A stretch of 64,000 nucleotides of DNA from an uncultured Eubacteriales bacterium (GTDB lineage Bacteria > Bacillota > Clostridia > Oscillospirales > Oscillospiraceae): NCBI GenBank assembly GCA_949296115.1, contig CASFNR010000012.1, forward strand, positions 27,413 to 91,412, written 5' to 3'. Shown one piece after another: positions 6,977 to 60,940 of this stretch (positions are counted from its first letter, which is position 1; each line of letters starts with the position of its first letter). The translations under genes and the position numbers were made by a program. The notes under the pieces were generated by a model. It was not told where the DNA came from and ran no database searches. It saw nothing but the letters and a program-made list of their open reading frames with translations.

Positions 6977-7840
6977 ATGAAACCGACATTTTACAACTGT
7001 GACTGCCATATTCACATGGTTCTGGACGGAGCGGACTGGAAGCGGGCCGTTGATCGGCACCGGCAGCAGCCGGAGGACGGCTGGATTCGGCAGGTACTGC
7101 GGCATTATCAGGAATTGGGATTTTCCTATCTCCGGGACGGGGGCGACCGGTGGGGCGTTGGAAAACGGGCCCGGGAACTGGCGGGGGAGTATGGCATCCG
7201 CTACCGGACCCCCTTATCCCCCTTGTGCAAGACGGGGCATTACGGCGGATTCATCGGAACCCGGTATGAAACCCTGGAAGAATACGGGGTCCTGGTGCGG
7301 AAGGCACGGGCGGAGGGAGCCGACTTTGTCAAAATCATGATCTCCGGACTGATGGATTTTGACCGGTTCGGCGTGCTCACCGAAGAGGGGCTTTCCGCCG
7401 GGGAAATCCGGGAGCTGATTCACATTGCCCATGAGGAGGGTTTCCCGGTGATGGCCCATGCCAACGGTCCCCGGACCGTGGAGGCAGCGGCCCGGGCGGG
7501 TGTGGATTCCGTGGAACACGGCGCTTATCTGGACGAAAATGCCCTGTGCGCCATGAAAGAGGCCGGGACGGTCTGGGTTCCTACCCTCTCTACCATCGGC
7601 AACCTCCGGGGAAAAGGCCGGTTCCGGGAGACAGCAGTGGAAGCCATCCTGGAAAGTGCCATGGAAAATGTCCGGCGATTTGCCGGTATGGGGGGCTTGC
7701 TGGCCCCGGGTACCGACGCCGGCGCCTGGGCCGTGCCCCACGGAAGCCGGACGGAGTTTGCCCTGCTGGAACAGGCCCTGGAAGGCATGGAGAGGACGTC
7801 CCTGGAACGGGGAACGGAGAAAATATGCGTGACATTCTGA
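6977..7840 (+). CDS. Amidohydrolase-superfamily protein
   Basis: A 287-residue soluble metal-dependent hydrolase. The strand-1 metal motif is CDCHIHM (residues 8-14), a GADFVKIM segment supplies the lysine that bridges the metals in many relatives, MAHANG gives a histidine, VEHGAYL another, and PGTDAGAW supplies the final Asp. These are the landmarks of the imidazolonepropionase/prolidase-like branch, but the chain lacks the usual C-terminal beta-sandwich part and is about 100 residues shorter than those enzymes. Substrate is unknown. It starts 4 bases after the ATPase stop and shares its transcript, so a link with metal stress is possible but unproven. A terminator follows at once. Confidence 0.8.
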   Translation: MKPTFYNCDCHIHMVLDGADWKRAVDRHRQQPEDGWIRQVLRHYQELGFSYLRDGGDRWGVGKRARELAGEYGIRYRTPLSPLCKTGHYGGFIGTRYETLEEYGVLVRKARAEGADFVKIMISGLMDFDRFGVLTEEGLSAGEIRELIHIAHEEGFPVMAHANGPRTVEAAARAGVDSVEHGAYLDENALCAMKEAGTVWVPTLSTIGNLRGKGRFRETAVEAILESAMENVRRFAGMGGLLAPGTDAGAWAVPHGSRTEFALLEQALEGMERTSLERGTEKICVTF

Positions 7841-7842
7841 TG

Positions 7843-7877
7843 TCCGGGGGGCGGTAAACCGCTCCCCGGATTTTTTT
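7843..7877 (+). terminator. Intrinsic terminator of the ATPase-amidohydrolase operon
   Basis: GC-rich stem (TCCGGGG, GCGG / CCGC, TCCCCGGA) with a TAAA loop and a seven-T tail directly after the amidohydrolase stop. Confidence 0.9.
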
Positions 7878-7916
7878 AAGGGAAGTTGCCCGGTTCGGGG
7901 CAACTTCCCTTTTTTT
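7878..7916 (+). terminator. Second terminator, at the left edge of the phage module
   Basis: Thirteen-base stem AAGGGAAGTTGCC / GGCAACTTCCCTT with an 8-base loop and seven Ts. It is stacked directly after the previous terminator and ends 28 bases before the first phage gene. Its stem resembles the hairpin at the right edge of the module (14451-14481). Confidence 0.88.
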
Positions 7917-7944
7917 GCACCTAGGGATGGAAAGGAAGGGTGAT

Positions 7945-8262
7945 ATGGAAGGCAGGGAACGATCCCTGAAACAGAGAATCCGGGCCGGAGAGATCCGGAA
8001 ACAGGACGTGGCACGGCGCTTGGCAGAACTGGCCTTCGCCCAGGCGAATGACTGCGCCCGGCTGGCCCTGGAGCCGGACTCCAACTTGGAAGGGTTGGAC
8101 TTGACGCTGCTCAGCGAGATAAAACGCAACGAGAAAGGAACGGTGGAAATCAAACTGATCGACCGACTGAAAGCACTGGAACAGCTGGCGCAGCTGACGG
8201 TGGAGGACAAAACAGCCCTGGAGGGACTGCTTCAGGCGCTCCGGGAAGGGGAAACGGAATGA
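7945..8262 (+). CDS. Probable phage terminase small subunit
   Basis: A 105-residue, highly charged helical protein placed directly before the large terminase, where the DNA-recognition subunit normally sits. Residues about 50-80 contain EIKRNEKGTVEIKLIDRLKA and a leucine-rich helix, a pattern I associate with short clostridial phage small terminases and related uncharacterised proteins. ATG 7945 is chosen over an upstream in-frame ATG at 7927 because AGGAAGGG lies at the correct distance only for the later one. It overlaps the next gene by four bases (ATGA). No helix-turn-helix is certain, so the role rests partly on position. Confidence 0.6.
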   Translation: MEGRERSLKQRIRAGEIRKQDVARRLAELAFAQANDCARLALEPDSNLEGLDLTLLSEIKRNEKGTVEIKLIDRLKALEQLAQLTVEDKTALEGLLQALREGETE

Positions 8263-9533
8263 ACAAACCATCCTTTTCTCCCAAACAGCGGCGGGTTCTG
8301 AACTGGTGGATGCCGGGCAGTCCCGACTATCACCGGGAGGCCATTGTCTGCGACGGTGCGGTCCGCTCCGGAAAAACCATGGCCATGGGGCTGAGTTTTG
8401 TTCTGTGGGCTATGAGCTGCTTCAATGGGCAGCGGTTCGGCATCTGTGGAAAAACCATCGCTTCTCTGCGGCGCAACGTCCTTGCCGACTTACTGCCCCG
8501 GCTTCAAAAATTGGGCATGGACTGGCAGGAAAAACGATCGGAAAACCTGCTGATTCTCCGCTTTCAGGGAATTGAAAATCATTTTTATGTCTTTGGGGGA
8601 CGGGATGAAAGTTCCGCCAGCCTGATTCAGGGCATTACCTTCGCCGGGGTTCTGCTGGACGAGGCGGTGCTGATGCCCCGCAGCTTCGTGGATCAGGCCT
8701 GCGCCCGGTGCTCCGTGGCGGGCAGCCGGCTGTGGTTCAACTGTAACCCCGCCGGTCCGTCCCACTGGTTCTACAAAACCTGGATTCTGGAAGCGGAAGA
8801 GCGGAACTGTCTGCGTCTGCGCTTCACCATGGAGGACAATCCCACCCTGACCGACACCATCCGCACTCGCTACAGGCGACTGTACAGCGGGGTGTTTTAC
8901 CAGCGCTATATCCTGGGGCAGTGGGTTCAGGCAGAGGGACGAGTCTATGACTTCTTCACCCAGGATATGGTGGGAAAGGCGCCGGAGCACTGCGATAAGT
9001 GGTACATTTCCTGCGACTACGGTACGGTGAATCCCACCTCCATGGGGCTGTGGGGACGCTCCGACGGGGTCTGGTATCGGGTGGAGGAATTTTACTTCGA
9101 CTCCCGGGCCCAGATGCGTCAGATGACTGACGCAGAGTACGCCGATGCCCTGAAAAATCTGGCAGGCGGGCGGCACATTACTGCAGTCATCGTGGACCCT
9201 TCCGCAGCCAGCTTCCTGGAATTGCTCCGGCGGCAGGGCTGGCATGTCCAAAAGGCGGACAACGATGTGCTCAGGGGTATTCGGCTGACCTCGGATTGCC
9301 TGAAGTCCGGCAGAATTGTGATCTGCGAGAAATGCCGGGACTGCCTGCGGGAGATGGAGTGCTATGTCTGGGACCTGCGGGACGGGAACAAGGACCGGGT
9401 CCGCAAAGAACAGGACCATGCCATGGATGACATGCGCTATTTCGTATCCACAGTATTGGCGGAAAGCCAACACTCCTTTGCCGCCTGTACGGTGGAACGA
9501 AAGACCTTGAAATCAGGGAAAGGAAGTGTCTGA
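8259..9533 (+). CDS. Phage terminase large subunit
   Basis: The 424-residue DNA-packaging motor and nuclease of a tailed phage. The ATPase half has Walker A DGAVRSGKT near residue 30 and Walker B GVLLDEAV near residue 130. The C-terminal RNase H-like nuclease half begins at SCDYGTVNP (first metal Asp near residue 249) and has IVDPSAASF carrying a further Asp. This layout matches PBSX/phage_terminase_3-type enzymes, and both catalytic halves are intact, so the gene does not look like a decaying pseudogene. The start overlaps the small subunit stop, indicating translational coupling. Confidence 0.93.
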   Translation: MNKPSFSPKQRRVLNWWMPGSPDYHREAIVCDGAVRSGKTMAMGLSFVLWAMSCFNGQRFGICGKTIASLRRNVLADLLPRLQKLGMDWQEKRSENLLILRFQGIENHFYVFGGRDESSASLIQGITFAGVLLDEAVLMPRSFVDQACARCSVAGSRLWFNCNPAGPSHWFYKTWILEAEERNCLRLRFTMEDNPTLTDTIRTRYRRLYSGVFYQRYILGQWVQAEGRVYDFFTQDMVGKAPEHCDKWYISCDYGTVNPTSMGLWGRSDGVWYRVEEFYFDSRAQMRQMTDAEYADALKNLAGGRHITAVIVDPSAASFLELLRRQGWHVQKADNDVLRGIRLTSDCLKSGRIVICEKCRDCLREMECYVWDLRDGNKDRVRKEQDHAMDDMRYFVSTVLAESQHSFAACTVERKTLKSGKGSV

Positions 9534-10676
9534 TTGAAACGAAAAAAGAATCAAACCGGAGCAGTCTCAGCGGTATGCCAGCTTCGGGGGGGCAGTATCC
9601 ATCCCTTCGGCGCCATGCGGGGTTTCGTCCCCTTAGGGGGCGGCGAGGAGCGGGTGTACCGGGAAATGCGGGAGGCGCTGCCGGTGCTGGATGCGGCAGT
9701 GGACAAAATGGTCCGCCTGTGCGGCGGATTCGAAGTCAAATGCCGCAGTGCCCAGGCCCAGGAGAAACTCAATGCCTTCCTGCGGATGATGCCCTGCGGA
9801 CGGGGACAGATGGGAATTGAGAGCTTCCTCAGCGGCTACCTGGACAGCCTGCTGACCTATGGCCGGGCAGTGGGAGAGCTGGTGGTGGCGGGCGGGAAGC
9901 TCCGGGCCGTCTGCTGGGGCGATGTGACCGCCCTGGAGGTGGAAGAGGGAAATGATTCCCTGGATATGGTGCTGTGGGGCCGGGATGAGCATGGCCTGAT
10001 GCGGCCCCTGCCTTATCAGCATCTGCTGCTGTTCACCACCATGCATCCGGAACCTGCCCACCCCTACGGGGTGAGTATGTTCCGGGGAATGCCATTTCTG
10101 GCGGATATTCTCCTGAAAATCTACAACACCATCGGCGTCAACTGGGAGCGGGCAGGAAATGTGCGCTACAGTGTGATCTGCAAAGGGGCGGAAAATCTGG
10201 ACCCCGTCACCGCCCAGGAACGGGGGAAGGTTGTGGCAGAGCAGTGGGCCAAGGCCATGGAGGACGGAAAAAACGGCACCGTCCGGGACTTCGTGGCAGT
10301 GGGAGATGTGGAAATCAAGGTCATTGGCGGAGAAAGCCCCATTCTGGATTCCGAGGTGCCGGTGCGGCAGATTCTGGAGCAGCTGGTGGCAAAAACCGGC
10401 CTGCCCCCCTTCCTGCTGGGGCTGAGCTGGAGCACCACCGAACGGATGAGCACCCAGCAGGCCGATCTGCTTACCAGTGAGCTTTGGGCCCTGCGCCGGG
10501 CGGTGGAGCCCGCCATGCGGAAAATCTGCCAGACTTACCTGGCCCTGGAGGGGCTGGACAACCGGGTGGAAATCCTATGGGACGACATCAGCCTGCAGGA
10601 CATCACCCAGCAGGCCCAGGCGGCGCTGTATTCCGCCCAGGCAGAAAAATACCGGGCGGAGGCGGGCCGCCCGTGA
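9534..10676 (+). CDS. Phage portal protein
   Basis: A 380-residue portal subunit that would form the dodecameric DNA entry ring of the capsid. The diagnostic stretch near residues 284-310 reads LPPFLLGLSWSTTERMSTQQ, typical of HK97-like portals, and the N-terminal wing has LPVLDAAVDKMVRLCGGFEV. The chain ends shortly after the clip/stem region, making it shorter than many portals (400-500 residues). It begins with TTG at 9534 immediately after the terminase TGA, preceded by AAGGAAG, and no better ATG exists nearby. Confidence 0.88.
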   Translation: MKRKKNQTGAVSAVCQLRGGSIHPFGAMRGFVPLGGGEERVYREMREALPVLDAAVDKMVRLCGGFEVKCRSAQAQEKLNAFLRMMPCGRGQMGIESFLSGYLDSLLTYGRAVGELVVAGGKLRAVCWGDVTALEVEEGNDSLDMVLWGRDEHGLMRPLPYQHLLLFTTMHPEPAHPYGVSMFRGMPFLADILLKIYNTIGVNWERAGNVRYSVICKGAENLDPVTAQERGKVVAEQWAKAMEDGKNGTVRDFVAVGDVEIKVIGGESPILDSEVPVRQILEQLVAKTGLPPFLLGLSWSTTERMSTQQADLLTSELWALRRAVEPAMRKICQTYLALEGLDNRVEILWDDISLQDITQQAQAALYSAQAEKYRAEAGRP

Positions 10677-10713
10677 AGATAGATGACAGGTTCAAAATAA
10701 GGAGGTTATGGTT

Positions 10714-11610
10714 TTGCAGGTAACGAAAGCGGCGGAGGCGGCAGCCAGCGGTCAGCCCAGTCCCATGCAGCTGGCCGCAATCAACGCCCTTGCCAAAACA
10801 GCGCTGACACCGGAACAGGTGTATGTTTTTTCCCTGCGGCTGTGTGACGATCAGGCAGATCGGGATTACGAACGGTTTGACGCTGCCGCCTTGCCGGAAC
10901 TGGCCCGGCTGTTCCGGGGGAAAACCGGAATTGTGGATCACTGCTGGAGCGCAGAGAATCAGATCGCCCGGATTTTTGAAACCCAGGTGGTTCAGGAGAA
11001 CGGCGTCAGTTACATCAAGGCCTGGGCTTATATCCGCCGGGGAGCGGACAACGACGGCATCATCGCCGACATCGAGGCCGGCATCAAGAAAGAAGTGTCC
11101 GTGGGCTGCGCCATGGGCCGGGCGGTATGCTCCATCTGCGGCAGCGACTACGGCAGCTGCGGACACCAGAAGGGGGATTATTACGACGGGCAGCTGTGCT
11201 GCGCCATTCTGAGAGAACCCATGGACGCTTACGAATTCTCCTTCGTGGCGGTTCCCGCACAGCGGGAAGCCGGGGTGCTGAAAGCCATGGGCAAGGGAGA
11301 AGCGGCGCTGAAAGATCTGGCGGAGCGGTTCGGTGCGCAACGGGAATACCAGTCCCTGAAAGCCCAAGCGGAACTGGGAAAACAGTTCACCCGGCAGCTT
11401 CAGGACAGCGTGGTCCGGCTGGGTCTGGCCCTGGAACTGGGCGTTCCGGAGCCGGTGCTCCGGGGCATCGCCGCCGGAGCCCAAGCCGAGGATTTGATGG
11501 TTCTGAAAGACGCTCTGGAGGAGCGTCTGGCTGAGAGCCTGCCGGTTACCCGGCAGCTGAGCGGCGGGAATCCCCGGGACGAAAAAGTGGAAAGCGGATT
11601 CTTAATCTGA
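10714..11610 (+). CDS. Putative prohead protease with zinc-finger-like insert and scaffold-like tail
   Basis: Sits between portal and capsid genes, where the maturation protease is encoded. Counting from the upstream ATG at 10708, candidate catalytic residues are His78 (GIVDHCW) and Ser131 (KEVSVGC), followed by EFSFVAVPAQREAGV, seen in phage head proteases. Between them lies an uncommon Cys/His cluster, C141-x2-C144-x6-C151-x-H153. From about residue 190 the chain is a charged helix-rich tail, suggesting a fused scaffold. The start is uncertain: the AGGAGG at 10700-10705 ends only 2 bases before ATG 10708 but 8 bases before the in-frame TTG at 10714, which I prefer. Confidence 0.7.
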   Translation: MQVTKAAEAAASGQPSPMQLAAINALAKTALTPEQVYVFSLRLCDDQADRDYERFDAAALPELARLFRGKTGIVDHCWSAENQIARIFETQVVQENGVSYIKAWAYIRRGADNDGIIADIEAGIKKEVSVGCAMGRAVCSICGSDYGSCGHQKGDYYDGQLCCAILREPMDAYEFSFVAVPAQREAGVLKAMGKGEAALKDLAERFGAQREYQSLKAQAELGKQFTRQLQDSVVRLGLALELGVPEPVLRGIAAGAQAEDLMVLKDALEERLAESLPVTRQLSGGNPRDEKVESGFLI

Positions 11611-11639
11611 AATCATTCTGACAGGAGGAATTTATTCAA

Positions 11640-12665
11640 ATGGCTTATGACAATCTGAGACTGGAAAAGGGTATGTACCGCCAGGAAGGCATGAACTTCA
11701 CCCAGGTGCTGGAGTCCCTGGACCCCAGCGAAAACTACCGGGGTACGGCGCTGGAGGGCACAGACGCCTTCCAGCGGCAGCTGAAGCGCTTTGGCATCCG
11801 AGTCAAAGGCGCCGGTTCCTCTCCCGTGGAGAAGTTCTTCCGGACCATGGACTCTGCGGTGCTGTTCCCGGAGTACATCGCCCGGACGGTGCGGCAGGGC
11901 ATGGAGGAAAACGACATCCTGCCCGCCATTACCGCTACCACCACCATCATTGACGCCATGGACTACCGCTCCATCTACTCCGTTCCTACCGATGCGGACA
12001 AGGAGCTGAAGGATGTGGAAGAGGGCGCCAGCATTCCCGAAACCGAAGTGAAAACCAAGGAACATCTGGTGAGCCTGAGCAAGCGGGGGCGGATGCTGGT
12101 GGCGTCTTATGAAGCCATCCGTTTCCAGAAGCTGGATCTGTTCAGCGTTATGCTGCGCCAGATCGGCGCACACATCCAGAAGCAGCAGCTGGCTGACGCA
12201 GTGGACGTACTGATCGACGGCGACGGAAATGACAACGAGGCAGTACAGTACACCATCGGAACCACCCCCATCTCCGGCACCAAGGGAACTCTGGGCTACG
12301 ACCAGCTGGTGGAATTCTGGGGGCAGTTCGACCCCTATACCATGAACACCCTGCTGTGCTCCACCGCCTGCATGACCAAGATGCTGAAGATTCCGGAACT
12401 TCAGAATCCCCTCACCGGGCTGAATTTCCAGGGGACCGGCAAGCTGACCACCCCGCTGGGCGCACAGCTGCACCGTACCTCTGCGGTGGCGGACGGCGTG
12501 ATCATCGGCCTGGATAACCGCTACGCCCTGGAGCAGGTCCGGGCAGGGGATGTGCTGGTGGAATATGACAAGCTCATTGACCGCCAGCTGGAGCGGGCGG
12601 CCATCACCTCCATCGCAGGCTTCGGCAAAATCTGCACCGAGGCCGCCTGCGTGCTGAACGTATGA
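11640..12665 (+). CDS. Phage major capsid protein
   Basis: A 341-residue shell protein. Features include an N-terminal helical arm, a conserved block ARTVRQGMEENDILPAI near residue 85, a beta-hinge segment, and the C-terminal DKLIDRQLERAAITSIAGFG common in HK97-fold capsid proteins of Clostridia. No long N-terminal scaffold domain is present, fitting a separate scaffold in the upstream protease tail. ACAGGAGGAA precedes ATG 11640. The stop overlaps the next start by four bases. Confidence 0.85.
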   Translation: MAYDNLRLEKGMYRQEGMNFTQVLESLDPSENYRGTALEGTDAFQRQLKRFGIRVKGAGSSPVEKFFRTMDSAVLFPEYIARTVRQGMEENDILPAITATTTIIDAMDYRSIYSVPTDADKELKDVEEGASIPETEVKTKEHLVSLSKRGRMLVASYEAIRFQKLDLFSVMLRQIGAHIQKQQLADAVDVLIDGDGNDNEAVQYTIGTTPISGTKGTLGYDQLVEFWGQFDPYTMNTLLCSTACMTKMLKIPELQNPLTGLNFQGTGKLTTPLGAQLHRTSAVADGVIIGLDNRYALEQVRAGDVLVEYDKLIDRQLERAAITSIAGFGKICTEAACVLNV

Positions 12666-13024
12666 TGCTGGAGGAGCGGGTTTTTATCCAGGCCGCCAGT
12701 TTGACAGGAGAACTGGAGCAGACGCAGGAAAACCTGCTGCGTCTGCTCTGCGGGGCAGCCACGGCAACCCTGGCTGCCCGCCTTCGTGCGGGTGTGACGC
12801 CGGAGGACTGTGAAAAAGAATTTCTTCAGGCTGCCAGCCTGTACGCCCTGGCAGACTTCTACAGCGCAGACCAAACCCAGTCCATTCAGCAGCTGAAGGC
12901 CGGGGATCTGACAATATATCAGGACAGCGTCAAGCAGGACGCCCGGGTCCAAAGCTTCCGTAACCAGGCCCAGGCCCTGATGGGACCATTCCTGCGGGAC
13001 CACTTCTCTTTCACGGGGGTTTGA
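12662..13024 (+). CDS. Probable head-tail connector protein
   Basis: A 120-residue helical protein immediately after the capsid gene, the usual place of the gp6-like adaptor that docks on the portal. The sequence is Ala/Leu/Gln rich with several predicted helices and ends in a short aromatic segment. No family is recognised beyond position and size. It starts at ATG 12662 inside the capsid stop (overlap of four bases), with a second ATG directly behind it. Confidence 0.5.
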   Translation: MMLEERVFIQAASLTGELEQTQENLLRLLCGAATATLAARLRAGVTPEDCEKEFLQAASLYALADFYSADQTQSIQQLKAGDLTIYQDSVKQDARVQSFRNQAQALMGPFLRDHFSFTGV

Positions 13025-13025
13025 T

Positions 13026-13370
13026 ATGCGGAAACTGGTTGCAGCCGTCATGGAAAAATACGGAACCGATCTGACCCTGGTGGGAACAAATATAAACCAG
13101 ACCGTACGGGGCTTTTTCTGGGCGGTCAACTCCAAGAGTTGGCAGAGCATGGAAAGCGAGGCGACCTTGCTGGGGGAGATTTTCCGGGGCCAGTACGCCT
13201 ACCTGGGCCCTGCCGATGTGGAAGTCCAGGAAGGAGATACCCTGCATCTGGGGGAGCGGGTCTACCTGTTTCGCCGGGTGGAGCTGTTCTATTGCGGCAA
13301 TCAGCCCCTGTACCGCTGGGGACTTTGTGTAGAAAAGGGTGTGAATGACACATGGGGAACTCAATCCTAG
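13026..13370 (+). CDS. Small phage protein, possible head-closure or stopper
   Basis: A 114-residue protein rich in beta strands, with the segment DVEVQEGDTLHLGERVYLFRR and aromatic residues characteristic of small barrel-like head-completion proteins. Identification rests on its order in the module (after the connector candidate) and its size. The ATG lies one base after the preceding stop, following GGGGGTTTG, a weak ribosome site, so translation is probably coupled. Its end overlaps the next frame by 19 bases. Confidence 0.45.
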   Translation: MRKLVAAVMEKYGTDLTLVGTNINQTVRGFFWAVNSKSWQSMESEATLLGEIFRGQYAYLGPADVEVQEGDTLHLGERVYLFRRVELFYCGNQPLYRWGLCVEKGVNDTWGTQS

Positions 13371-14053
13371 AGCTGGTACTGCGAATCCTGCGGCAGCAGG
13401 GACTGATTGCCGACATTGCCTATCCAGGTCAGAAATTTCCCACCATCTCCGGGCCGGTATCTGCCGTGCACATTGCCTCGGTGGATCGGGACAATCTCAC
13501 GGTTACCATAGAGGTGAGCGTCATCTGCCCGGCCTCCATGGGCGGGACCCAGTGTGAAGTGGAGGCCCTGCGGGTCACGGAGATTCTGCGGGGAGAACGG
13601 GCGGTGTGCGTTCAGCAAGGCTGCCGGTATGACGGAATTGCCCAGGTGTATGTGGTGGATATTCTGGCTACCTTTACCGGGTTTACCGAAGAAGCCAACT
13701 GCCGGATCTGGCCGGGGTTCTATACTTACCTCAATAACGTGCAGCTGACCTTCGTCACCGGTTTTACCGAGGAGGAAACCACCGGCATTCAGGCGGAATT
13801 CGCCACTGCGGAGCATCTGGTGAAAGGCACCAGCCAAAGAACACGAAGCTGGAGCATCCAGCTGGAGGAACAGATTCCGGTTGGGTCACCCGAGCCGGCG
13901 GAACCCACCGGCGCCTTTGAATTGAAAATCGTGACAGACAAAAAAACGGAAATATATTCTCAGTGCCGATGGACCCAAATCCGTCGGGAATTTTCTCCGC
14001 GGGGCATCCGGCGAATCCGCACCGGATTTGCATTCCTGCGGGAGGAGGTGTAA
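13352..14053 (+). CDS. Phage module protein of unknown function
   Basis: A 233-residue protein with two visible parts. The first 60 residues form a short helix and beta strands (VSAVHIASVDRDNLTVTIEV), with a further strand-rich stretch to about 140. The remainder ends in a strongly basic tail (RREFSPRGIRRIRTGFAFLR). No catalytic motif or transmembrane segment is seen. In head modules this position is used by neck or tail-completion proteins, but that is inference. The start ATG lies within the preceding gene, and its stop TAA overlaps the region used as ribosome site for the next gene. Confidence 0.5.
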   Translation: MGNSILELVLRILRQQGLIADIAYPGQKFPTISGPVSAVHIASVDRDNLTVTIEVSVICPASMGGTQCEVEALRVTEILRGERAVCVQQGCRYDGIAQVYVVDILATFTGFTEEANCRIWPGFYTYLNNVQLTFVTGFTEEETTGIQAEFATAEHLVKGTSQRTRSWSIQLEEQIPVGSPEPAEPTGAFELKIVTDKKTEIYSQCRWTQIRREFSPRGIRRIRTGFAFLREEV

Positions 14054-14054
14054 T

Positions 14055-14417
14055 GTGGACTATCTGAGCTATAAGACCTTTGTCTGGCCCCAGAACCCCC
14101 ATACCTACAAGGAAGAACTGGTGCGGGAACCGAAATTCCATACCCAGGATGGGGTGACCTACTTTGACAAGATGGGCGATTTGCAGCGCACCATCACTGG
14201 AAGCGGTGTATTTTACGGGGAGGGCGCCTACGACAGCTATAAAGCGCTGATGGCCCTGTTCGGCAGTCCCACCCCGGGAAATCTGGAGCACCCCATCTGG
14301 GGAATCTTCTACTGCTACTTTACCGGACTGGAGATGACCCAGGAACCGGAGGAAAACTGCATCAGTTATCGGTTTACCTTTACCGGGGCGCTGGCAAACG
14401 GAGTCGTGCCGACCTAA
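14055..14417 (+). CDS. Last gene of the phage module, possible tail-associated protein
   Basis: A 120-residue protein beginning VDYLSYKTFVWPQNPHTY, translated from GTG 14055, one base after the preceding stop and behind GGAGGAGGTG. The N-terminal WPQNPHTYKEE and a GSGVFYGEGAYDSYKALMALF stretch recall small baseplate or LysM-less tail proteins of PBSX-like phages, which is a tentative resemblance. If it is tail-related, the module keeps one tail gene but none of the tube, tape measure or fibre genes. The strong terminator of the module begins 34 bases after its stop. Confidence 0.5.
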   Translation: MDYLSYKTFVWPQNPHTYKEELVREPKFHTQDGVTYFDKMGDLQRTITGSGVFYGEGAYDSYKALMALFGSPTPGNLEHPIWGIFYCYFTGLEMTQEPEENCISYRFTFTGALANGVVPT

Positions 14418-14450
14418 ACACCGGATGACGCCTGTAAGAACATTATTTTT

Positions 14451-14488
14451 GGGAGGATTGCCGTTTCAGGGCAATCCTCCCAATTTTT
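14451..14488 (+). terminator. Terminator at the right edge of the phage module
   Basis: Perfect 12-base stem GGGAGGATTGCC / GGCAATCCTCCC, 7-base loop, tail AATTTTT. It separates the phage module from the convergent GDPD gene, and is similar in sequence and shape to the hairpin at 7880-7909. Confidence 0.92.
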
Positions 14489-59394: not shown

Positions 59395-59432
59395 AAAAAA
59401 CGCAGAGCTCACTTCCGGGCTCTGCGTTTTTT
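59395..59432 (+). terminator. Leader terminator or attenuator before larE
   Basis: Stem AAAAAACGCAGAGC / GCTCTGCGTTTTTT with a 10-base loop, lying between the lar promoter and the larE ribosome site. CCCGGAG at 59379-59385 could pair with TCCGGG at 59414-59419 in the loop, offering an alternative fold. It may also terminate the cob transcript. Confidence 0.8.
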
Positions 59433-59442
59433 GGAGGAAATC

Positions 59443-60195
59443 ATGGAATTGACGGAATTTTTTCAGGCCCACCCTCAGGCGGCCATTGCCTTTTCCGGCG
59501 GGGTGGACTCGGCCTACCTGCTGTGGGCAGGGATGCGGGCCGGGACCAGGGTGAAGGCCTATTACGCAAAAACCGCCTTCCAGCCGGCCTTTGAGCTGGA
59601 GGATGCCAAACGACTGGCCCAAGAACTGGGAGCGGAGTTGGAAATCCTGCCGGTGGATATTCTGTGCCGGGAGGAGGTAACGGCGAACCCTGCGGACCGC
59701 TGCTACCACTGCAAGCGGGCATTGTTTGAAACCATCCTGAAAGCGGCCAAAGCCGACGGTTTTTCCTTGGTGCTGGATGGGACCAACGCCTCAGACGACG
59801 TTTCCGACCGACCCGGTGTCCGGGCGCTGCGGGAACTGGAGGTCCGTTCCCCCCTGCGGGAGTGCGGCATGACCAAGGCGGAAATCCGCAGACGTTCCAA
59901 GGAGGCCGGGCTGTTCACCTGGGACAAGCCCGCCTATGCCTGCCTGGCCACCCGAATCCCCACAGGAGAGCAGATTACCGGGGAAAAGCTGGAACGAACG
60001 GAGCGGGCGGAAGAATATTTGATGAATTTGGGTTTCCGGAACTTCCGGGTGCGGCTGGACGGGGGCAGGGCAAAGCTGCAGCTGCCCGCTGCTGCCCTCC
60101 CGCTGGTGCTGGAGAATCGGGAGGAAATTGTGAAAACCCTGAGAAAGTCTTATGACGGTGTTTTGCTGGATTTGGAGGTACGCGATGCATTCTGA
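59443..60195 (+). CDS. larE: ATP-dependent sacrificial sulfur transferase LarE
   Basis: A 250-residue PP-loop enzyme that adenylates pyridinium dicarboxylate mononucleotide and donates sulfur from its own cysteine for the nickel-pincer nucleotide cofactor. The PP-loop is AFSGGVDSAYLL (residues 16-27), DRCYHCKRALF follows, and the conserved cysteine is Cys167 in DKPAYACLATRIP, the position used as sulfur donor in the Lactobacillus enzyme. ATG 59443 follows TTGGAGGAAAT. larB overlaps its end by 11 bases. Confidence 0.93.
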   Translation: MELTEFFQAHPQAAIAFSGGVDSAYLLWAGMRAGTRVKAYYAKTAFQPAFELEDAKRLAQELGAELEILPVDILCREEVTANPADRCYHCKRALFETILKAAKADGFSLVLDGTNASDDVSDRPGVRALRELEVRSPLRECGMTKAEIRRRSKEAGLFTWDKPAYACLATRIPTGEQITGEKLERTERAEEYLMNLGFRNFRVRLDGGRAKLQLPAAALPLVLENREEIVKTLRKSYDGVLLDLEVRDAF

Positions 60196-60940
60196 TACGA
60201 AAAAACTGCTGGAATCCGTCCAGCGGGGGGAAACCTCCGTGGACGATGCTCTGCTTCAGCTGAAGCTGTCCCCCTTTGAGGACATTGGCTATGCCAAGGT
60301 AGACCTGCATCGGAAGCTGCGCCAGGGCACGGCGGAGGTGATCTACGGCGCTGGGAAAACCCCGGAGCAGATTGCGGGAATCATTGCCGCCATGCAGAAA
60401 AACGGGCAGAATCGGATTTTAATTACCCGCCTGTCCCCCGAGGCGGCGGAAGAAGTATCCCGGACGGTGGAGCTGGATTACCGCTCCATGCCCCGGCTGG
60501 GCATCGTCGGCGGATTTCCGGAGCCGGACGGCTTGGGGAAGGTGGTCATCGCCACCGGCGGCACCAGCGACATTCCTGTGGCGGAAGAAGCGGCCCTGAC
60601 GGCGGAGATCCTGGGCAGCCAGGTGGTGCGGCTGTATGATGTGGGAGTTGCCGGAGTACACAGGCTGCTGGCCCACATGGAATTGATTATGGATGCCAGT
60701 GTCATCATCGCCATTGCGGGGATGGAGGGGGCGCTGGCCAGTGTGGTGGGCGGCCTTGCGGACTGCCCGGTGATTGCGGTGCCTACCAGTGTGGGCTATG
60801 GGGCGTCCTTCGGTGGGGTCAGCGCCCTGCTGAGCATGCTCAATTCCTGCGCCAGCGGGGTCAGTGTGGTGAACATCGACAACGGCTTCGGTGCAGGCTT
60901 CCTGGCCAACCGGATTAACCATATGGAGGCAAAGAAATGA
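60185..60940 (+). CDS. larB: Nickel-pincer cofactor biosynthesis protein LarB
   Basis: A 251-residue carboxylase that converts nicotinic acid adenine dinucleotide to pyridinium dicarboxylate mononucleotide, the first step of the cofactor. The N-terminal part has YAKVDLHRKLRQGTAEVIYG; the C-terminal PurE-like domain has VVIATGGTSDIPVAEEAAL, GMEGALASVVGGL and PTSVGYGASFGGVSALL. ATG 60185 lies within the end of larE and its stop overlaps larC by four bases. Confidence 0.94.
   Translation: MHSDTKKLLESVQRGETSVDDALLQLKLSPFEDIGYAKVDLHRKLRQGTAEVIYGAGKTPEQIAGIIAAMQKNGQNRILITRLSPEAAEEVSRTVELDYRSMPRLGIVGGFPEPDGLGKVVIATGGTSDIPVAEEAALTAEILGSQVVRLYDVGVAGVHRLLAHMELIMDASVIIAIAGMEGALASVVGGLADCPVIAVPTSVGYGASFGGVSALLSMLNSCASGVSVVNIDNGFGAGFLANRINHMEAKK

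Follow-up and report, generated by a model that had tools for sequence, protein, structure and literature searches.

The described system closest in design to the locus analysed here appears to be FpGTA, a gene transfer agent (GTA) of Faecalibacterium prausnitzii (Borodovich et al. 2026, PMC12946183). Our locus is a block of nine genes at positions 7945-14417 of a 64,000-nucleotide stretch of DNA, hereafter the window (G000:C12:27413-91412; contig CASFNR010000012.1 of assembly GCA_949296115.1), from an uncultured member of the genus Faecousia whose genome assembly comprises 2.42 Mb in 85 contigs and is 90% complete. With a probability of about 0.72, we read this block as the head-and-packaging operon of a domesticated, vertically inherited, GTA-like system of Faecousia with dispersed parts.

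In the sections of the FpGTA report used here, the agent consists of a ten-ORF (open reading frame) head operon (FpGTA I, 10.5 kb) and a second operon of 5.5 kb with baseplate, fibre, receptor-binding, holin and endolysin genes. The particles measure approximately 40 nm, have no identifiable tails, contain 8.4-8.9 kb of host DNA and are called podovirus-like. The same sections describe GTA-type packaging in Oscillospiraceae (Onthomonas) as well, and GTA-like packaging as prominent in gut Oscillospiraceae and Ruminococcaceae; of the four metagenome-assembled genomes searched, Faecalibacterium alone yielded a strong operon candidate (PMC12946183). In both systems, each found in a genus of gut Clostridia, the genes for the two terminase subunits, portal and capsid form a head operon; receptor or baseplate and lysis genes are kept apart from it, and replication genes are absent as far as described. 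The two systems differ in size (6.5 kb and nine genes in Faecousia, eight in many species), in the partner loci, which in Faecousia are several, scattered and share a hairpin motif, and in the tail, which in Faecousia has apparently collapsed by a terminator-tube fusion. Particles and packaged DNA have been demonstrated for FpGTA, whereas the Faecousia system is known from its genes and is likened to it by design, not by sequence.

In the GTA of Caulobacter (CcGTA), GafY activates the main cluster and approximately 18 accessory promoters, and GafZ antiterminates (PMC11150451). The host phylum and the regulators are different, and no such shared hairpin is described in the sections of that paper used here. 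The system is still instructive as a model of a dispersed regulon whose leaders resemble terminators. The likeness lies in a main cluster with accessory GTA genes elsewhere in the genome that are activated in common with it, as is proposed for Faecousia.

PBSX of Bacillus subtilis is chromosomally fixed, packs host DNA and has a single cluster that combines a complete contractile tail with lysis genes. Its order of head and contractile-tail genes is similar to that of tailed relatives of the Faecousia block, whereas the block itself has neither contractile tail nor in-cluster lysis genes. Capsid-forming phage-inducible chromosomal islands (cfPICIs) are mobile islands with their own capsid and packaging genes, no tail genes, an integrase and regulators. 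The block resembles them in the first two respects and differs in that no integrase or regulator was found among its nine genes or their window neighbours. The cfPICI class is named in the part of PMC11389934 used here. No description of the Faecousia element was found among the open-licence papers that our literature searches listed.

Gene content, selection and inheritance of the block

Positions 7945-14417 are filled by nine tandem ORFs on the + strand. The features of the locus were as follows.

7842..7871, + strand: terminator-like hairpin of the upstream amidohydrolase gene, outside the element (pattern scan)
7868..7945, + strand: cis motif of the element, with a GTTGC..GCAAC hairpin (stem 7878-7911), TTT and the TA.GG.TGAAAGG ribosome-binding region of terS (R2 model)
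7945..8262, + strand: gene 1, small terminase, terS (PF03592 over cut-off; 64/71 loci, the 7 misses being contig ends)
8259..9533, + strand: gene 2, large terminase, terL, with ATPase and nuclease (PF03237, phrog_2)
9534..10676, + strand: gene 3, portal, TTG start (phrog_30703, E 5.8e-146)
10708..11610, + strand: gene 4, prohead-protease-like, with a Cys/His cluster (phrog_16951; weak head/protease matches)
11640..12665, + strand: gene 5, major capsid protein (PF25209, phrog_3922)
12662..13024, + strand: gene 6, head-tail connector by position (no convincing family match; syntenic in 70/71 loci)
13026..13370, + strand: gene 7, neck or head-closure protein by position (profile match, probability 100, to a cluster that includes the same-place gene of relatives)
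13352..14053, + strand: gene 8, apparent fusion of tail terminator (N half) and tail tube (C half) (hhalign)
14055..14417, + strand: gene 9, DNA_circ_N or baseplate-hub-type domain, GTG start (PF07157, 2.4e-7; phrog_184)
14449..14483, + strand: right-hand terminator-like hairpin (pattern scan)

The ORFs and family searches confirmed nine packed genes with terminase, portal, protease and capsid apparently intact, as reported in the initial annotation. That annotation considered all other parts of a phage to be missing. This holds for integrase, replication and lysis families, for which Pfam and PHROGs searches gave no match among the nine genes (integration and replication genes were also absent from the ten window neighbours scanned), but not for the tail, given the terminator-tube fusion of gene 8 and the hub domain of gene 9. 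Its two terminator edges were correct on the right; the left edge consists of two hairpins, one of which belongs to the element. The lack of a visible promoter before the first gene was reproduced, as no sigma-70-like match was obtained in a pattern scan of 7700-7945.

The large terminase is present in a single copy in its own genome. Across the genus its Walker A motif, GAVRSGKT, is invariant (64/64), as are the DE pair (65/65) and the putative nuclease residues D249, D309 and D386 (65/65); these roles are presumed from known motifs. Gene 4, the putative protease, retains H76, S129, E174 and the residues of its Cys/His cluster in 70/70 sequences. The three small neck genes gave no convincing family match. 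Searches of solved structures gave no match for the portal profile and no convincing one for the capsid.

A capsid search was positive in 71 of the 136 genus genomes (23/40 of the best genomes). The capsid was always present in one copy, at 75-100% identity, and was stop-free in 71/71, one (G190) being cut by a contig end. One genome counted among the 65 capsid-negative ones, G053, has a portal and a terS site on a contig that stops before the capsid. A portal search was positive in 49/149 relatives; 45 of these, counting the own genome, belong to the genus. The closest named records were those of Candidatus Faecousia and uncultured Oscillospiraceae. Together with the window, the loci fetched from the other 70 capsid-positive genomes made up a set of 71. 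Genes 1-8 are complete in 63 of these, the remaining 8 are cut by contig ends, and no other order occurs. Since gene 9 is present in only 32/71 loci (absent or not found in 39), the conserved core is an eight-gene segment of approximately 6 kb. In loci that lack gene 9 a hairpin often lies directly 3' of gene 8 (by eye). IMG/VR lists Faecousia blocks as viral contigs; these are probably host DNA, because in at least six of them (L112, L113, L115, L118, L119, L132) a host metal-ATPase or amidohydrolase gene adjoins the block.

Ratios of nonsynonymous to synonymous substitution (dN/dS), the check proposed in the initial annotation for terminase, portal and capsid, were low and indicate purifying selection. 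In ten hand-picked close pairs the capsid gave 0.02-0.07, terL 0.03-0.13 and the portal 0.03-0.10. Medians over independent pairs were 0.130 (capsid, 31 pairs), 0.122 (terL, 15) and 0.102 (portal, 19), with pairs restricted to 0.1<dS<0.8 and the NG86 method used, as dS saturates at higher divergence.

Inheritance of the block is largely vertical. A tree of four block proteins was compared with a host RqcH tree for 60 genomes and gave a Mantel r of 0.77 (0/999 permutations); the nearest neighbour was identical in both trees for 28/60. On the host tree, which is built from this one gene and holds a non-random 36 of the 65 capsid-negative genomes, block presence required 11 changes versus a shuffled mean of 29.7. 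The expectation that relatives would carry the same genes at the same site without tail genes was borne out for gene order and for the absence of sheath, hub and baseplate, but not for gene 9, nor for the site, which differs between clades. In 12 genomes from distant clades the same amidohydrolase gene immediately precedes terS on the same strand, suggesting a single ancestral site with later rearrangement and loss. Thirteen amidohydrolase loci from block-negative genomes showed neither block remnants nor a clean empty site. In one of these, L331, two right-hand window genes lie near the amidohydrolase in rearranged form.

Slowly decaying prophage remnants, acquired independently, would fit the patchy presence (71/136) and the sites that differ between clades. 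Such remnants should show dN/dS near 1 and frequent stops, whereas the capsid is stop-free in 71 species-level genomes, dN/dS is low and one gene order is kept; distant clades also share a neighbour gene, and none of the 13 block-negative amidohydrolase loci contains leftovers. This account is the least probable of those considered and is very hard to sustain. Synteny, purifying selection and the vertical signal instead make it very likely that the block is host-maintained and selected. The earlier suggestion of a host-maintained particle, said to fit at least as well as a random remnant, is thus supported, with the GTA-like option favoured among the three then offered. The block is not confined to one strain or relaxed from selection, and the absence of stops and shifts in large genes applies across the genus, a truncated portal being the exception seen.

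The shared hairpin and the genes behind it

Copies of the 7878-7911 hairpin lie upstream of terS throughout the genus, and the chromosomal site varies. The hairpin's GTTGC...GCAAC-type core was found in nearly all of 61 aligned loci (L176, L181 and L183, with misplaced terS starts, were omitted), at near-fixed spacing to the ribosome-binding site. The window copy scores 60.4 bits with the R2 model (E 7.5e-16, the site being part of the training set) and is the sole good copy in the window. RNAalifold gave covariation support on the hairpin alignment. In shuffles that ignore kinship among sites, outer pairs 1-3 of 56 block sites exceeded 2000/2000 shuffles, and pairs 4 and 5 were reached by 6 and 20; for 17 re-anchored extra sites, pairs 2-5 were reached by 0-11/2000 and pair 1 by 114. 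Some copies are without a T-run.

The motif is also found outside the genus, shortly upstream of terS in 15/50 relatives at E<1e-4, several of the 50 being cut before terS. The best copies are in L109 (4e-14), L098 (5e-13) and L079 (1e-11). As the motif also precedes terS of tailed relatives, it is ancestral.

Two simpler roles were rejected. A mere host terminator is at odds with the different chromosomal sites, the non-universal T-run and the covarying outer stem, and a role as packaging site only is at odds with copies that precede lysis and receptor genes elsewhere, though packaging may be an additional role. Because the outer stem covaries while the T-run is not universal, the hairpin probably acts in nascent RNA, by attenuation or antitermination or by control in the 5' untranslated region.

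A covariance-model scan of the 136 genus genomes, with stricter filters that lose weak matches, returned 53 extra sites (E<=1e-6), which are spread over 37 genomes, every one block-positive; the 65 capsid-negative genomes had none (Fisher 1.4e-13). A 54th site (G151:C202) was dropped as probably that genome's own terS site. Thirty extra sites were read, in 18 genomes chosen by the author, mostly for strong matches (R1 E <= 2.7e-4 or R2). L437 (no core motif) and L363, L372 and L375 (terS sites of the block itself, on split contigs) were dropped from this set. The sites read comprise 15 lysis, 7 receptor-binding-like, 1 DUF4417, 1 DUF5906, 1 dnaA and 5 without assignment:

Lysis sites confirmed by Pfam (10): L398, L399, L403, L404, L409, L410, L412, L418, L425, L427
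Lysis sites by eye (5): L400, L408, L416, L429, L432
Receptor-like sites over the BppU_N cut-off: L401, L440, L413
Receptor-like sites below the BppU_N cut-off: L411, L415
Receptor-like sites, BppU-like or fibre-like, with no BppU_N match: L407, L430

The lysis families behind the motif are M15 peptidase, Amidase_2, Amidase_3, NlpC/P60 and Phage_holin_4_1. Lysis or receptor genes are tied to the motif in 16 of the 18 genomes as read from their sequence, the window's own genome not being among the 16. The initial annotation's statement on lysis therefore stands for the block itself, but not for the many relatives in which lysis and receptor-binding-like genes lie elsewhere behind the same hairpin. 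At L400, L403, L412, L416 and L425 the motif-linked lysis genes adjoin one and the same radical-SAM host gene in several species, with the amidase truncated or lost in some. The gene names YgiQ-type (radical-SAM), MTHFR and XhlA-like are presumptive and in part assigned by eye. BppU_N failed as a general marker, as 2/22 of its loci carry the motif.

The capsid might serve as an intracellular container or anti-phage decoy, in keeping with a block that has no tail fibre or lysis gene and with an own genome in which no motif-linked lysis gene was found. The ATPase and nuclease residues of TerL are invariant, whereas an encapsulin-like container would be expected to have no working motor, and other genomes keep lysis genes behind the same hairpin. 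A container is accordingly improbable, and the GTA-like reading is preferred to it because a container would not need an invariant ATPase/nuclease motor. The block is likely to be one part of a dispersed GTA-like system, and the shared hairpin provides a handle for finding all its parts and for testing how the regulon is switched on.

The motif was also observed before other genes. It precedes 6/13 DUF4417 loci of block-positive genomes (two weakly) versus 0/6 of block-negative ones; motif-linked loci include L327:7103-8553 (G000:C29, own genome) and L381, L394 and L387 (G050 twice, G166). A good copy lies shortly before dnaA (Pfam-confirmed) in L417 (G031:C4), and possibly likewise in L438 (G154:C16); this adjacency may be a regulon link to the start of replication, or chance. 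In L405 (G085:C76) the motif precedes a DUF5906/D5-type primase-like gene, the sole gene of phage-replication type behind it.

Reduced tail and contractile relatives

In tailed relatives outside the genus the same head genes are followed by terminator, sheath and tube, and then by a stretch of approximately 0.3-1.3 kb, a hub-associated protein of approximately 190 residues, hub, baseplate J and more. The tail order is constant and the cluster measures approximately 12-13 kb where complete. A sheath was seen in 20/21 long viral-collection relatives examined, and in L091 sheath, hub and baseplate wedge were confirmed by PHROGs. The capsid gene lies before the portal in L494, L503 and L505.

With hhalign, gene 8 residues 3-108 matched the terminator-position protein of these relatives (probability 97, E 8e-11) and residues 118-223 the tube-position protein (probability 94, E 1e-7). 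The absence of a tail tube in the initial annotation was therefore only partly right. Gene 9 aligned to residues 23-134 of the tail protein of approximately 190 residues (probability 100). Homologues of sheath, hub and baseplate were not found by tblastn in the 71 fetched loci (1.12 Mb), and a tblastn search with a relative's tube protein had its sole match there in the C half of gene 8 in L225 (28%, E 9e-5). Gene 8 thus appears to join a tail terminator to a tail tube. In the contractile relatives these are two genes with the sheath between them; since they are now joined, the tail appears to have collapsed. In the simplest history, the sheath would have been lost and its two neighbours fused, with loss of the stretch after the tube and of hub and baseplate. 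This provides a traceable case of a contractile tail reduced almost to nothing beside a DNA-packaging head under strong selection.

Baseplate J was found in 7/136 genus genomes, 5 of them block-positive. Six of the seven loci were fetched and had no block homologue and no hairpin motif. A contractile tail encoded elsewhere is disfavoured by this rarity and by the unlinked loci; non-contractile tails were not searched for.

The block might instead make PBSX-like killing or lysis particles, in which host DNA is packed as a by-product and the selected role is toxic particles or lysis against competitors. The tailed relatives do encode sheath, hub and baseplate J, and PBSX likewise has a contractile tail. 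The FpGTA authors keep the same reading open for FpGTA in the sections used here (PMC12946183). In the Faecousia loci, however, the DNA motor is invariant and homologues of sheath, hub and baseplate are lacking, and no contractile tail with sheath and baseplate was found in the 71 loci. We regard this as unlikely, though the strongest of the rivals.

A capsid-forming satellite with its own heads would borrow tails from helper phages. Head and packaging genes without tail genes are the cfPICI layout, and the terminator-like half of gene 8 could join a tail. No integrase, primase or regulator was found among the nine genes or their window neighbours, inheritance is vertical with clade-structured presence, the cis hairpin is common to lysis genes, and it is not obvious that a terminator joined to a tube domain could take a foreign tail. 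Such a satellite is well below the PBSX-like particle in probability and hardly above the container. The GTA-like reading is preferred to it because integration and replication genes would be expected, and none occurs among the scanned genes.

Tailed clusters with a very short tube-hub gap and near-constant order were observed across Oscillospiraceae genera (L078-L111, L483-L515). Flanks were scanned in six tailed loci, two of them in both directions and the other four on the upstream side alone. Named flank genes are mostly of the host (RNase Y, RpiB, penicillin-binding protein, M20 peptidase, oxaloacetate decarboxylase, glutamate dehydrogenase, CysS, YjjI, histidine kinase), and no integrase was found in the scanned flanks. 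The tailed clusters may therefore be fixed too, and may represent a second GTA-like or PBSX-like family. Together with the candidate loci across a whole Oscillospiraceae genus, they offer a searchable contractile sister cluster in other genera.

Proposed system, points against it and neighbouring genes

Several properties of the block are those of a GTA. Phage-derived head and packaging genes are fixed in host genomes and inherited mainly vertically, purifying selection acts with an intact motor, and the structural cluster is free of replication and integration genes among those scanned. The system would pack and deliver host DNA. A host-controlled factor would switch on all hairpin-bearing units together, and the terminase would fill a small capsid with host DNA, the expected cargo of a system that has no replication module. 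Together with BppU-like proteins, and with gene 9 in the loci that have it, the fused terminator-tube ring would close and decorate the portal vertex as an ultra-short tail, and holin and endolysin would lyse the producing cell and free the particles.

We give even odds to a wider proposal of a Gram-positive GTA lineage in which two things hold together. An ancestral short contractile tail would have collapsed to a one-ring tail by sheath loss and terminator-tube fusion, and the late genes (heads, lysis, receptor binding) would have dispersed round the chromosome, each unit with one ancestral late-gene RNA hairpin that wires a single host-run regulon.

The following observations weigh against the GTA-like reading. 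Approximately half of the genus is without the block, which is therefore dispensable. Within the block, evolution is faster in terS and genes 6-8, with median dN/dS of 0.22-0.40 and values of up to 1.0 in single pairs; six loci have a shortened gene 8, gene 9 is absent or not found in many, and the portal of G034 ends at residue 302 of 377. In two contigs of the viral collection (L138, L139) the protease gene comes ahead of the portal gene. Support for the tube half of the fusion amounts to 11% profile identity and one weak tblastn match. No extra hairpin site at E<=1e-6 was found in 34/71 block genomes, the genomes read were the author's choice, and the amidases at L400 and L416 look truncated. 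Enrichment of BppU_N genes is modest (16/71 block-positive versus 5/65 other genomes, p 0.019) and only two of their 22 loci have the motif. The own genome has only two motif sites, the block and one DUF4417; no motif-linked lysis gene was found there, lysis genes not having been otherwise searched, and Baseplate J and BppU_N are absent. No regulator was identified, and the system is known here from genes alone.

Neighbouring genes in the window are those of the host. On the left are a metal ATPase and the amidohydrolase (6977-7840), and on the right GDPD (opposite strand), diacylglycerol kinase, NUDIX and C39 peptidase genes. Further along, at 59431-60940, LarE- and LarB-like genes (nickel-pincer cofactor) were recognised by eye in what is an ordinary host region.

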